Source: Synechococcales cyanobacterium bin31.maxbin.ball.101 (lineage in GTDB: Bacteria > Cyanobacteriota > Cyanobacteriia > Leptolyngbyales > Leptolyngbyaceae). Taken from it: a stretch of DNA of 53,572 nucleotides. Under the pieces are notes generated by a model, which did not search any database, had not been told where the DNA came from, and worked only from the letters and a program-made list of their open reading frames with translations. The position numbers were made by a program, and so were the translations under genes. Where the stretch lies: NCBI GenBank assembly GCA_013298165.1, contig JAAFJU010000019.1:1-53572 (forward strand), read 5' to 3'. Numbering within the stretch: the stretch's first letter is position 1; each line of letters begins with the position of its first letter. Below, piece by piece: positions 5,593 through 9,409 of this stretch.

Positions 5593-5811
5593 ATGCTTTC
5601 CATCGATTTAGCTGCTTTTCCATTTCTCACATCCCTTTGTTGGCAGGGGGAGAAGCCGTCTATTGAAGGTCTGACGGAAGCTGAAATTCTTAGCATTTAC
5701 GAACGAAATTGGCGGTGGCGCGGGGTGATGGCTAGTTTGAGTGATGCTGAAGTTACATGGATTCAAACCTATGGAAAACTCCACGATTCTTGGCTAATCA
5801 ATGAGCTATGA
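5593..5811 (+). CDS. Small protein coupled to an AbiEii-like nucleotidyltransferase
   Basis: A 72-residue protein (MLSIDLAAFPF...) with no motif I can name; it is Trp-rich in the middle (NWRWRGVMA) and predicted soluble. Its TGA overlaps the next ATG by 4 bases (ATGA), so the two are translationally coupled. The position suggests an antitoxin or accessory partner of the downstream nucleotidyltransferase, but it does not resemble the winged-helix AbiEi antitoxin. Function inferred from position only. Confidence 0.65.
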   Translation: MLSIDLAAFPFLTSLCWQGEKPSIEGLTEAEILSIYERNWRWRGVMASLSDAEVTWIQTYGKLHDSWLINEL

Positions 5812-6563
5812 ACTTTCAATATCCCTTTCATAATCAGATTTTTCAAGTTTTGCAATGTCTCGATCGGAGCTTTCTCGATCGCTGTCACATTGCCTTTGGC
5901 GGTGGAACGTTGCTAGCACTAGCCTATGGAGAGTATCGGTTAAGTCGAGATATGGATTTCCTTTGTCCGTACGGAGAGCCGTTTTCAAGGTTGCGTCGTG
6001 AGATTTACGATCGGGGTTACGAAGCTCTTTTTCAACCGAACATTCCATCTAATATTCAGTTTCCCCATGAGATTCGGACCGATCGGGATGGGGTGAGATT
6101 GACCATCAAAGTTGATGATACGAGTTTAAAGCTTGAAATTGTGGCGGAAGGGCGGATTCAATTAGAGCGGCCTGAGGTGCGATCGGGGTTTCCGGTGTCT
6201 TGTTTGAGTGAAACAGATCAGATTGCGGAGAAGTTGCTGGCAAATGGCGATCGTTGGGCAGATGCTTCGACGGATTCACGAGATTTGATTGATTTGGCAA
6301 TGTTGATCCAATCGATCGGCTTCTCGGATATTGCAATTAATAAGGCTGAGGCCGCGTACCGTTGTATTGATCCACTCAAACGATCGATCGTTAATTTTCA
6401 ATCCAAACCAGATTACCGATCGCGTTGTTATTCCCGTTTGCAGATCAGTCGTCCTAGTGAGATCATGAATGGCATTGATGCGTTGGCGCTATGGTGTGGG
6501 CTTGAGGTGTGCGATTCTCTAGGAGAGAGGCTTCACCAACGGATTTCGGAAGAACTGTTTTAG
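5808..6563 (+). CDS. AbiEii/AbiGii-family nucleotidyltransferase (toxin-like)
   Basis: A 251-residue protein with the nucleotidyltransferase signature FGGGTLLALAY followed by RLSRDMDF; D48 and D50 would be the metal-binding pair. The downstream segment ETDQIAEKLLANGDRW...SRDLIDLAML matches the helical region typical of AbiEii-type enzymes. AbiEii is the toxin of type IV toxin-antitoxin and abortive-infection modules, adding nucleotides to RNA. It overlaps the 72-residue gene upstream. Family is well supported; toxicity or phage defence is inferred. Confidence 0.82.
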   Translation: MNFQYPFHNQIFQVLQCLDRSFLDRCHIAFGGGTLLALAYGEYRLSRDMDFLCPYGEPFSRLRREIYDRGYEALFQPNIPSNIQFPHEIRTDRDGVRLTIKVDDTSLKLEIVAEGRIQLERPEVRSGFPVSCLSETDQIAEKLLANGDRWADASTDSRDLIDLAMLIQSIGFSDIAINKAEAAYRCIDPLKRSIVNFQSKPDYRSRCYSRLQISRPSEIMNGIDALALWCGLEVCDSLGERLHQRISEELF

Positions 6564-6572
6564 TTTACGATC

Positions 6573-6611
6573 GGCCCCCCAGCCCCCAATTCTGGGGGAG
6601 CCGGACCGTTT
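6573..6611. repeat. GC-rich palindromic dispersed repeat
   Basis: The core GGCCCCCCAGCCCCC-AATT-CTGGGGGAGCC forms a hairpin and is the same element found inside the CHAT gene signal-peptide region at 31720. It begins ten bases after the AbiEii stop and could act as a transcript end. Confidence 0.65.
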
Positions 6612-6627
6612 GGAGTCGATCGAAGCG

Positions 6628-6858
6628 CGATCGGAGTTGCTCAAGTCACGATCGGAGTTGTTTGAAGCGCGATCGAAGCCGTTCAAAGCACGTTCGGGAT
6701 TGCTCAAAGCGTGTTTCGAGTTGCTTGAAGCACGATCGGAATCGCTCAAATTACGATCGGAGTTACTTGAAGGGCGATCGGAGTTAGCCAAATCACGATT
6801 GGAGTTACTTGAAGGGCGATCGGAGTTAGTCGAAGCAGGATTGGGGTTACTCGAAGCG
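6628..6858. repeat. 21-bp tandem repeat (minisatellite), 11 units
   Basis: Eleven consecutive 21-bp units, most starting CGATCGGAGTT and ending in CTxxAAGxx, so the HIP1 core CGATCG recurs every 21 bases. Because 21 is a multiple of 3, several frames are open: the plus strand reads heptads like RSELLEA and the minus strand reads SDRASSN. No ATG with a ribosome binding site precedes them (only a TTG at 6610). I treat this as non-coding repeat DNA, but a heptad-repeat peptide is not excluded. It lies directly upstream of the NACHT two-gene unit. Confidence 0.85.
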
Positions 6859-6952
6859 CGATCGATGCCATAACGATCGTTGTTGATCCTGTGAAGTCGG
6901 GATGAATAGTTATTTCCGCAGTAGAATAAGGCTAGAATTTGGAGCTTTATTC

Positions 6953-7414
6953 ATGTTGGACAAGCTTTTTGGGAAGAAGGGAAAGGCGGAAGCTGAGACG
7001 CCGAAGCAATCGCAGAGCATGAGTGGCATTGGGGGAAGTGGTCAGCAGGTTCAGGCGGGGCGGGATGCGATCGCGACCCAACAAGCGCAACAAGCAACCC
7101 AGCAGCAAGGACTGACGGGGACTGAAGTGGTGGCTTTACTGGCTCAGTTGCAGGGGGCGATCGAGGCATCGGGACTGACACCGGATCAGAAGGAAGAGCT
7201 TCAGGATTATCTCAAGGCGGCGAAACGGGAGGCGGGGAAGGAGTCTCCAGATAAGGAGTTTGTCGGGAAAAATCTGAAGAATGTCGGGGAGACGATGAAA
7301 AATTTGAAGGAGACGACGGAAGCGGGGAAGAGTCTGTGGCAGACGGGCGGAGAGGTGTTTAAGACGATCGCCCCTTGGCTCGGGATTGCGGCGTCGGTAT
7401 TTGGGGTGATGTAG
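6953..7414 (+). CDS. Small NACHT-partner protein with QAGRDAIA motif and hydrophobic C-terminus
   Basis: A 153-residue protein. Residues 23-43 (MSGIGGSGQQVQAGRDAIA) nearly match residues 16-36 of the NACHT protein encoded next (MSAMGGDGQQTQAGRDAIA). A Gln-rich linker, a helical central part (LTPDQKEELQDYLKAAKRE) and a C-terminal hydrophobic stretch (TIAPWLGIAASVFGVM) that could insert in membrane follow. The ATG at 6953 has GGAG upstream; a longer start at 6902 lacks support. The shared motif and 75-base gap suggest the two proteins act together. I do not recognise a named family for the C-terminal part. Confidence 0.7.
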   Translation: MLDKLFGKKGKAEAETPKQSQSMSGIGGSGQQVQAGRDAIATQQAQQATQQQGLTGTEVVALLAQLQGAIEASGLTPDQKEELQDYLKAAKREAGKESPDKEFVGKNLKNVGETMKNLKETTEAGKSLWQTGGEVFKTIAPWLGIAASVFGVM

Positions 7415-7489
7415 GGACAAATCGGGAAATTACCGGATTTCCTCTTGATGTGGGGAATAATGCTAAGGATGCTGTGAGTGCTGGGGCGG

Positions 7490-9301
7490 ATGATGGAGAA
7501 GCGTTTTAATCCCGATCGATCGCAAGACCAAGACATGAGTGCTATGGGCGGTGATGGTCAGCAGACTCAAGCGGGCAGAGATGCGATCGCGTTGCAGAAT
7601 TCGCAGATGACGATTAATAAGTCATTTATTGCATTGTTTGGCGGTCGTTCTGTTGCGCCGGGGGTCGATTGGGATTGGGCGATGAAGATTTTGAAGCAAC
7701 AGCAACCGGATCTTAAGAAACGGTTGAGGGAATCGTTGTTTGGGTTGGCTCAGGTGGATGCGGTTGAGGTGGAGGCGAGGGGGCAAGAAGCGTCTCCGGC
7801 CTTGATGTTGGAGGCGAAGAAGACGTTGACGGTAAATGGAACTGAGGCTGGGACGATCGATGCAGATTTGCCCATTATTGCAACCTATGCGAGGGAGGAT
7901 ATTGATGGGTCGCTGTTGATTTTGGGAACGCCGGGTGCGGGGAAGACGATTACGCTGCTGAAGTTGGCGGACCAGTTGGTGGGGGAGGCGATCGTCAACC
8001 CGGAGACGGTGATTCCGATCGTTTTTGAGCTTTCGACTTGGCGCGAGGGGCAGAGCATTGAGGCTTGGTTGATTGAGCAGTTGTATGAAAATTATGGTGG
8101 GAAGCGAGAGTGGAAGGTATATGAGACTTGGTTAGAGCGGCGGGTGTTGTTGCCGTTGTTGGATGGGTTGGATGAGTTGGGGATGGTGCGGCAGAAGGCT
8201 TGTACGGAGAAGGTGAATGCGTTTGCGGCGCAGTATCCGCAGGTGGTGGTGTGCTGTCGGGTGAAGGAGTTTCAGCAGGCGGGGGTGAATCTGTCGAATG
8301 TGCGGGGGAAAGTGCAGTTGCAGCCGTTGACCGATCGGCAGCTTGAACAGTATTTGCAATCCATGGGGAAAGTAGGGCTGTGGGAGCAGATTTTGTCGGT
8401 GCCGGAGATGGGGAAGTTATTGGAGCCTGTGATTGATAAGGAGAATGCTGATTATGATGAGCCGGGATTGCTGCGGGTGCCGTTGTTTATTTCGCTGGCG
8501 GCGAAGGTTTATGAACCGGGTCAGCCGTTGAAGGGGAAGACGGATCTGTTCGATCGGTATATCGATCGGCAGCTTTCGTGGGATGCGCGGGTGGGCGATC
8601 GGCGCAAGGAAGTCAAGAAGCGGGATTGGTCATTTAAGGCTGTGGATCAGGAGCCGAAGCCGGAAGCGGCGAAACGATCGATAACTTGGGTCGCTCGGCA
8701 ACTTCAGCGGCAAGGTCAAGTGGAGTTGTTGATTGAGAAGATGCAACCGAGTTGGTTAGACAGCAACATTACCAAATGGCAATATCGGCTGATTGGAGGG
8801 CTGATTGTCGGGCTGATTTTCGGGCTGATTGTCGGGCTGATTGGAGGGCTGAAGCAGGACTTAAAAGTACGATCGCATCCAAATCAAGGCATTTGGAATT
8901 CACTTCAAAGTACTGTTTTTACAATGCTTTTTATGTTTCCCGGCGGCATCATTTTGACCTATTTTCCTCGTGTGATTAGCGATGGGATCAAGAATGGAAA
9001 ATCATGGGAAGCGATCGGCGCTCTACTCTGGAAAAACTTTCCCAACTTCATTATTCCGGGATTATTGATGACACTATTCTTAGGAATATTTTTAGGCGGT
9101 GGGGCTGCCATAGTCCAGCACATTTGTCTCCGCATCATTCTCACCTGCCACTATCCCGTCCCCTGGAATCTCGCCCAGTTCCTCACCTATGGTCACGAGC
9201 GCCGCTTACTTCAGCAGATCGGCGGGCGGTATCGGTTTATTCATCGGGAGTTGTTGGAACACTTTGCAAGAATGGAGAATCTCTTCAAAAATAGCTTGTG
9301 A
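7490..9301 (+). CDS. NACHT-domain NTPase with C-terminal membrane segments
   Basis: About 603 residues. After the N-terminal QAGRDAIA motif comes a NACHT ATPase: Walker A GTPGAGKT (about 146-153), Walker B LLPLLDGLDEL (about 221-231) and sensor strand VVVCCRVKEF. Beyond it, PLTDRQLEQYL and LLRVPLFISLAAKVY are typical of cyanobacterial NACHT proteins. Roughly residues 425-560 contain three or four hydrophobic segments (LIGGLIVGLIFGLIVGLIG, MLFMFPGGIIL, FIIPGLLMTLFLGIFLGGG), then the family-typical ending YRFIHRELLEHFA. NACHT proteins are signal-sensing switches, several being anti-phage. The start is the ATG at 7490 or 7493. The last residues are antisense to the truncated vapC, marking a recombination junction. 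Confidence 0.85.
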   Translation: MMEKRFNPDRSQDQDMSAMGGDGQQTQAGRDAIALQNSQMTINKSFIALFGGRSVAPGVDWDWAMKILKQQQPDLKKRLRESLFGLAQVDAVEVEARGQEASPALMLEAKKTLTVNGTEAGTIDADLPIIATYAREDIDGSLLILGTPGAGKTITLLKLADQLVGEAIVNPETVIPIVFELSTWREGQSIEAWLIEQLYENYGGKREWKVYETWLERRVLLPLLDGLDELGMVRQKACTEKVNAFAAQYPQVVVCCRVKEFQQAGVNLSNVRGKVQLQPLTDRQLEQYLQSMGKVGLWEQILSVPEMGKLLEPVIDKENADYDEPGLLRVPLFISLAAKVYEPGQPLKGKTDLFDRYIDRQLSWDARVGDRRKEVKKRDWSFKAVDQEPKPEAAKRSITWVARQLQRQGQVELLIEKMQPSWLDSNITKWQYRLIGGLIVGLIFGLIVGLIGGLKQDLKVRSHPNQGIWNSLQSTVFTMLFMFPGGIILTYFPRVISDGIKNGKSWEAIGALLWKNFPNFIIPGLLMTLFLGIFLGGGAAIVQHICLRIILTCHYPVPWNLAQFLTYGHERRLLQQIGGRYRFIHRELLEHFARMENLFKNSL

Positions 9302-9409
9302 AATGAGAAGCGTTTCACCTTGCAAAATCTGACGCAATGCGATCGCAGGCTGAGACGATCGAAACAAAACTGCACTAACCAACACATTGGTATCAACAAC
9401 AACGCGCAA
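9206..9409 (-). pseudogene. Truncated PIN-domain (VapC-like) toxin
   Basis: Starts from a TTG at 9409, four bases after the antitoxin stop and behind GAGGAG. The first ~45 residues (MRVVVDTNVLVSAVLF...GETLLISQAIFEEIL) are a clear PIN N-terminus with the first catalytic Asp. Homology then stops, and the remaining residues are simply antisense to the NACHT C-terminus. PIN toxins are usually about 130-140 residues and need three further acidic residues, all missing here. The toxin is therefore almost certainly dead, cut near 9275-9285. Confidence 0.8.

Follow-up and report, generated by a model that had tools for sequence, protein, structure and literature searches.

An N-terminal motif shared by a small four-helix protein and its NACHT neighbour in cyanobacteria

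The gene pair and its shared motif

The window analysed here is a 53,572-nucleotide stretch of DNA (contig JAAFJU010000019.1) from Synechococcales cyanobacterium bin31.maxbin.ball.101, in which a small effector-like gene is followed on the same strand, after a gap of 63 bases, by a gene for a NACHT protein (Table 1). Near their N-termini, both proteins carry a motif, MSGIGGSGQQVQAGRDAIATQ in the small protein and MSAMGGDGQQTQAGRDAIALQ in the NACHT protein, with the common core M-S-x-x-G-G-x-G-Q-Q-x-Q-A-G-R-D-A-I-A-x-Q. BLASTP comparison of the two proteins yields a single segment (19 of 33 residues identical, expectation value (E) 4e-9) and no second significant one (next best E 2.5), which bears out the shared motif and the lack of other similarity reported in the first-pass annotation of this DNA; the annotated coordinates are also correct.

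We then searched the genome itself (5,388,309 bases in 356 contigs, E up to 1) with the small protein, which returned the protein itself, the neighbouring NACHT gene (E 9.8e-6) and a chance-level match at E 0.144; below E 0.1, the genome thus holds only this matching pair. Together with the BLASTP result, this indicates that the shared motif is neither a chance match nor common low-complexity sequence. Counts of a loose QAGRD-type pattern also speak against a chance or low-complexity match: the open reading frames (ORFs) outside the paired set used contain 15 matches in 831,455 residues, 11 of which are, judged by eye from their sequence context, effectors or motif-bearing partners themselves. 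Note that the pattern misses some motifs, being found in 25 of 57 effectors (the small protein and its relatives, see below) and 18 of 43 partners. NACHT relatives exist elsewhere in the genome; three of them (on contigs C244, C315 and C67) have different N-termini, with no such motif in the first 150 residues.

Table 1. Features of the two-gene unit, in window positions
Feature	Positions	Strand	Residues	Basis or remark
Small effector-like gene	6953..7414	+	153	Starts with ATG; relatives found by homology search
Shared motif, small-protein copy	7019..7081	+	23-43	BLASTP and co-variation
Predicted four-helix bundle domain	7112..7390	+	about 54-146	AlphaFold2; domain profile A2; PADLOC PDC-M14B, E 1.1e-9
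Putative NACHT sensor gene	7478..9301	+	607, from GTG 7478	Alternative in-frame ATG at 7490 or 7493
Shared motif, NACHT-protein copy	7535..7597	+	20-40	BLASTP and register matching
NACHT ATPase core	7916..8197	+	147-240	Pfam match; Walker A GTPGAGKT; LLPLLDGLDE
Membrane-type region with GLI(V/F)GLI repeats	8777..9127	+	about 434-550	Hydropathy; tandem repeat

The AlphaFold2 model of the small protein, built on four sequences, places helices at residues 56-72, 77-94, 101-119 and 123-143, and the ten-residue blocks between residues 61 and 140 reach mean predicted local distance difference test (pLDDT) values of 91-96. The N-terminus is modelled with low confidence (pLDDT below 50 at residues 1-3, 7-38 and 45-50), including a low-confidence helix over residues 37-51. 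The C-terminus is hydrophobic, as had been annotated, but of borderline hydropathy for a membrane helix (over residues 135-153, the best 19-residue segment, the Kyte-Doolittle mean is 1.56), and it forms the end of the predicted bundle, whose last helix and tail are amphipathic to hydrophobic; W142, G144 and A146 are invariant across nine aligned sequences. Neither Pfam nor NCBIfam yields a match above cut-off for the domain; residues 19-139 match residues 149-262 of the 267-residue PADLOC profile PDC-M14B. Foldseek found nothing for the model at E ≤ 0.001 (best E 0.45), VIA-align rows were generic four-helix bundles with Z up to 10, which is under the level the tool advises for helical bundles, and a PDB sequence search with profile A2 gave a best E of 0.053. 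Several relatives likewise start with M(L/F)xKLFGKK or MFGKK. Directly upstream of the small gene lies an array of 21-base units, TCGAAGCGCGATCGGAGTTAC (6620-6864, 11.7 copies, 66% match).

The neighbouring protein has both Walker A and Walker B sequences and matches the NACHT profile, which identifies it as a NACHT/STAND NTPase; its Pfam match (E 3.6e-5, 24.1 bits) is slightly under the curated cut-off of 26.7 bits, which a relative (L044) clears with 32.4 bits. Hydropathy segments begin at residues 434 and 521. A 12/24-base tandem repeat at 8787-8852 encodes the membrane-type GLIVGLIFGLI stretch, and this region varies in length, with much longer versions in some relatives (e.g. L044 and L030). 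The 3' end of the gene is overlapped by a PIN-domain fragment of 67 amino acids on the minus strand (9206-9409), which may be the remnant of a toxin gene.

Co-variation and register of the motif between neighbours

Relatives of the four-helix domain were collected with profile A2, which at E up to 1e-6 finds matches in 64 of the 388 genomes sampled from the class; with the whole small protein and E up to 0.01, matches occur in 11 of 42 genomes of the order, two of them weak (both counts include the genome of the window). A sample spanning the phylum gave matches at E up to 0.001 in 144 of 386 genomes. Of the 144, 123 belong to other classes, almost all to family f31, and their partial matches (about 20-34 bits, in ORFs of about 440-650 amino acids) were set aside as probable helical chance matches. 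Matching public plasmid records number 14, all cyanobacterial; phage records gave no relative, and neither did viral contigs, which were searched with two peptide patterns only. The regions around the matches gave 86 ORFs with the domain, or 83 without L043-L045, which are the same DNA as L026, L050 and L027. Leaving out four with an effector N-terminus shorter than 40 amino acids and five with less than 500 nucleotides downstream gave 74 loci, thinned to 57 at 75% N-terminal identity. In one locus, an in-frame stop (L029:6895-6897) splits the motif-bearing N-terminus from the NACHT body, and broken copies also occur in L033 and L048, which suggests decay of some units.

For each of these 57 loci, the sequence preceding the four-helix domain was compared, without gene calling, with the three-frame translation of 960 bases ending 900 bases past the gene. 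The mean score was 59.2 with the locus's own neighbour versus 36.7 with the neighbours of other loci, and none of 20,000 permutations reached the own-pair sum (z 16.1); the QAGRD class alone gave z 13.0 over 42 loci. The window pair, with a score of 96, ranks first of 57 in both directions; across all 57 rows, the own neighbour comes out on top in 15. The signal persists when loci are thinned to one per four-helix-domain cluster (1,000 permutations for each of 100 random draws), with z at least 6.65 for the 20 clusters at 50% identity and p at most 0.005 for the 7 clusters at 40%. It is also specific to position, since scores of at least 45 occur in 42 of 56 downstream windows, in one of 56 upstream on the same strand (L112), in one of 56 upstream on the other strand (L034, a real divergent partner with a matching motif), in none of 56 on the opposite strand downstream and in none of 51 windows 3.5 kb away; these controls cover 56 or 51 of the 57 loci as windows shorter than 700 nucleotides were left out. 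Own pairs are thus closer than mismatched ones, indicating concerted change, whereas one ancient duplication would give equal distances. Fourteen of the 57 loci score under 45, five of which (L047, L050, L053, L065 and L116) keep an adjacent P-loop gene with a diverged but recognisable motif. Overall, the pairing is conserved: the motif recurs beside the small gene in other cyanobacteria and co-varies within pairs, which supports the proposal of the first-pass annotation that it couples the small protein to the NACHT switch. Neither of the two outcomes named there as refuting this was observed, as the motif is not common low-complexity sequence and in most loci the small gene is kept beside motif-bearing partners.

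The matching is in register. From 64 pairs, of which 11 were low-scoring adjacent pairs added by hand to avoid favouring high scorers, 42 had a QAGRD-like anchor on both sides and 31 of these were non-redundant. Aligned on QAGRD, these 31 pairs have 199 identities outside it, compared to 113 expected and 155 in the largest of 10,000 permutations, with the strongest matching at positions -4, -3, -2, -13 and +7 relative to QAGRD. The matches are identities rather than complements, which is the requirement for a homotypic parallel stack. Note that at least one of the 31 pairs (L074) is anchored off its obvious motif, which works against the register result. From the Q-x-Q start to QAGRD, both window motifs are, by eye, three residues shorter than the copy in L028, from the same genus.

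At identical residues in 43 pairs, the two genes use the same codon in 290 of 651 cases, against 278.5 expected from codon usage alone; in the window pair, 10 codons are the same and 8 different. The codons thus look randomised, and the match is maintained by selection at the protein level rather than by recent copying. Recent duplication or gene conversion was rejected on this comparison.

Motif classes, partners and genomic surroundings

Several distinct motif classes are found, each matching within its own pair. Besides the QAGRD class, they include GGxVxGSxIxxGDxNT with an nSTAND1 partner (L038), SGQIAVG with a divergently oriented partner gene that has a weak NB-ARC match (L034), GGxQAAxGxxN (L035 and L085), GSxGVGQQAA with a NACHT partner (L114) and repeats of the QGDNN type (L077, L110 and L113); the partner motif of L077 weakly resembles an ice-binding beta-roll (Pfam E 3.4e-5, below cut-off).

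The partners vary as well. Of 43 non-redundant ones (score at least 45), 23 show a P-loop pattern and 17 lack one, the other 3 being truncated ORFs, so that NACHT as the partner, as first annotated, holds for the window and many loci but is too narrow. Most P-loop partners have several C-terminal membrane segments, and in one (L112) NACHT is joined to a Tll0287-like domain. STAND-free partners carry PDZ (L082 and L087), SH3 (L075, weakly L088), GUN4 (L031) or FGE-sulfatase (L077) domains, and others among those scanned have no informative domain match (e.g. L085, L091, L099, L113 and L115). In seven partners (L082, L085, L087, L088, L097, L113 and L115), a single membrane segment starts at residue 44-81, shortly past the motif.

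On the effector side, most members are stand-alone proteins with little besides motif and bundle, and 66 of the 83 ORFs with the domain are at most 220 amino acids long (measured from stop to stop, a few of them truncated). Among the long effectors, the four-helix domain lies behind a CHAT domain in L092 and L106, and also in L037 with a weak four-helix match, and motif and four-helix domain lie behind pentapeptide repeats in 6 of 10 tested. After the CHAT effector of L092, which has motif and four-helix domain, come four genes with a QAGRD motif at the start of each (L092:5560-12999); a single executioner may serve several sensors here. The motif is present in two neighbouring genes of L079, and one of the proteins (5757-6662) holds two QAGRD copies.

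In the window, the unit is flanked upstream by AbiEi/AbiEii-like genes and downstream by the PIN fragment, a GIY-YIG protein and an HSDR_N protein, in line with the annotated toxin and nuclease neighbours; a general defence-island setting finds no support in the relatives, whose flanks show no PADLOC enrichment. At E up to 1e-10, with one protein possibly counted in several families, 60 flanking ORFs of 20 relatives gave 6 families and 8 member-hits, versus 22 families and 24 member-hits for 60 control ORFs from the same 20 genomes (mean length 330 and 383 amino acids, respectively). AbiE and nuclease genes beside the unit may thus be a local feature of the window.

Proposed sensor-effector coupling and its alternatives

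Bacterial amyloid NLR signalosomes, or BASS/Bell systems, were reportedly described by Dyrka et al. in 2020. They are the closest known kind, of which the present system is best read as a variant, with the effector motif at the other end and many partners that are not NLRs. According to passages of the reports on them, an NLR gene in BASS/Bell systems adjoins or overlaps the gene of a small helical effector that has a hydrophobic helix; the NLR carries a short matching motif at its N-terminus, the motifs fall into several families, CHAT effectors occur occasionally and filamentous cyanobacteria are among the hosts (PMC7889193, PMC8086366, PMC12261475). The window likewise has adjacent NLR/STAND and small-effector genes, as do the loci of the 23 partners with a P-loop pattern, and its short matching motif lies at the NLR N-terminus. 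Unlike in Bell effectors, where those passages place the motif C-terminally, it lies before the four-helix domain, both in the window and in those relatives that were aligned or listed, and this domain is without a Pfam or NCBIfam match.

Other known systems are less close. Effector-associated domains (EADs) are described, in parts of PMC7159879 and PMC8195603, as small, mostly all-alpha domains tied to ternary vWA-MoxR, GAP1 and similar systems, often in multiple copies per genome. They share with the present motif homotypic coupling and a greater likeness between copies in adjacent genes than between others, but the motif is short and occurs in only two genes of its own genome; no EAD is named among the Pfam matches of either window protein at E up to 1, and Pfam may not cover every EAD model. 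The bacterial TRADD-N domain was rejected, as its RRM-like alpha/beta fold (a passage of PMC7159879) differs from the confident all-helical model. In the fungal HET-S/NWD2 and HELLP systems and in the animal RHIM necrosome, a receptor is said to impose its amyloid fold on a partner that targets membranes or induces death (in part after PMC7889193), as is proposed here; a RHIM-like pattern, the sole sequence comparison made with these systems, matches one relative (ILTGDSNTV in L038) and not the window. The PADLOC system PDC-M14, of which the small protein matches component B, is a candidate defence label only; ten partner proteins scanned and the window NACHT protein have no PDC-M14 match, and no paper with the name PDC-M14B was among those listed by a search of open-licence PMC full text. 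The pairing described here likewise did not turn up among the papers listed by searches of that collection or in sections of PMC7889193, PMC8086366, PMC12261475, PMC8195603, PMC7159879 and PMC10907252.

We consider it probable that one gene codes for a sensor and the other for an effector dedicated to it, linked by homotypic in-register coupling and with a membrane-damaging or otherwise cell-stopping output. As is usual for the NACHT family, the membrane-associated protein would assemble in an ATP-dependent manner upon sensing a cue, which would bring its N-terminal motifs together. The cluster would then seed a homotypic in-register stack, most likely cross-beta and amyloid-like, recruiting the matching motif of the small protein, and the four-helix bundles with their hydrophobic C-termini would be concentrated at the membrane, leading to its damage or to another form of cell arrest. 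Homotypic coupling of sensor and effector by the motif is the best-supported part. By analogy with BASS motifs, as described in parts of PMC7889193 and PMC8086366, the motif is likely an amyloid; membrane damage by the four-helix protein is a sensible guess, and the unit may serve in phage defence. The small protein may be a pore former, as the first-pass annotation suggested; its model has a four-helix bundle whose last helix is hydrophobic, but no significant Foldseek match. The combination of a low-confidence N-terminus and a confident helical bundle in the AlphaFold2 model is counted in favour of this scheme, as is the weak beta-roll resemblance of the L077 partner motif.

Several observations weigh against it. 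Nine of the 57 non-redundant loci have no recognisable partner motif, and L053, L055 and L059 score just 35-36 against their adjacent NACHT protein, indicating that near-identity of the motifs is not required. Related loci share part of the register signal, so that the independent events are fewer than 31. In the model of the small protein the motif is unstructured or a low-confidence helix, not beta, which neither supports nor excludes an amyloid, and the structure predicted for the NACHT protein on the basis of two sequences was of unusably low quality (mean pLDDT 37). Among the families listed, the fold matches generic four-helix bundles only, and the fusions with CHAT or pentapeptide repeats hint that the bundle might serve as adaptor or anchor and not as the killer. 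A general defence-island setting is not supported by the PADLOC counts of flanking and control ORFs.

This last point also bears on the alternative that the unit is a stress or developmental switch, responding to redox, tetrapyrrole or envelope state, and not an anti-phage system, to which we give a substantial though less than even chance. The partner domains GUN4, Tll0287-like, PDZ and SH3, the lower PADLOC count around relatives than in controls and the lack of relatives in the phage records and viral contigs searched would all fit such a switch, while the AbiEi/AbiEii-like neighbours in the window, the match of the four-helix domain to the candidate model PDC-M14B, and a patchy distribution, plasmid records and broken copies resembling those of conflict genes argue for defence.

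It is unlikely that the four-helix protein is an adaptor or membrane anchor, with fused or recruited enzymes such as CHAT proteases as executioners and, in two-gene units, a bundle that regulates another target. The CHAT and pentapeptide fusions and the generic fold are compatible with that role, but as members are mostly motif and bundle alone, the bundle must act by itself, and its last helix is amphipathic and hydrophobic with three invariant residues.

A somewhat smaller chance still goes to a homotypic docking module of non-amyloid nature, for instance a small beta-roll or coiled assembly forming a defined oligomer with the sensor ring. Co-variation and register matching fit an amyloid and another homotypic assembly equally, the QGDNN class weakly resembles a beta-roll profile and the model has its low-confidence helix over residues 37-51; yet the element has just about 20-30 residues, is rich in Q, N, S and G and of low confidence, which is closer to signalling amyloid motifs, as portrayed in parts of PMC8086366, than to a globular domain. 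Finally, a functionless by-product of recent duplication or gene conversion is highly improbable. Neighbouring genes can exchange sequence and the window pair is unusually similar, but identical residues share codons hardly more often than codon usage predicts, partners of unrelated families show the matching as well, and the window match is limited to the motif.

Returning to the sensor-effector coupling, the diversity of partners raises a broader possibility, which we hold tentatively and at slightly below even chances: the self-matching motif, not the NLR, would be the constant element, acting as plug and socket to wire one four-helix executioner family to NACHT, nSTAND1, possibly NB-ARC and STAND-free receptors, with distinct motif classes keeping parallel circuits apart. 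The STAND-free receptors would then comprise those with a single membrane helix soon past the motif and a PDZ or weak SH3 domain, and others with GUN4 or FGE domains. If so, amyloid-type signalling would run straight from membrane receptors in bacteria. More generally, if the proposed coupling is true, amyloid-type sensor-effector wiring would extend beyond NLR pairs with C-terminal effector motifs to modular cyanobacterial receptors, and would involve an effector domain to which no Pfam or NCBIfam family could be assigned. Natural motif pairs, matched and mismatched, are numerous and would then offer a direct test of the specificity of short homotypic motifs, a question shared by RHIM, HET-s and BASS.

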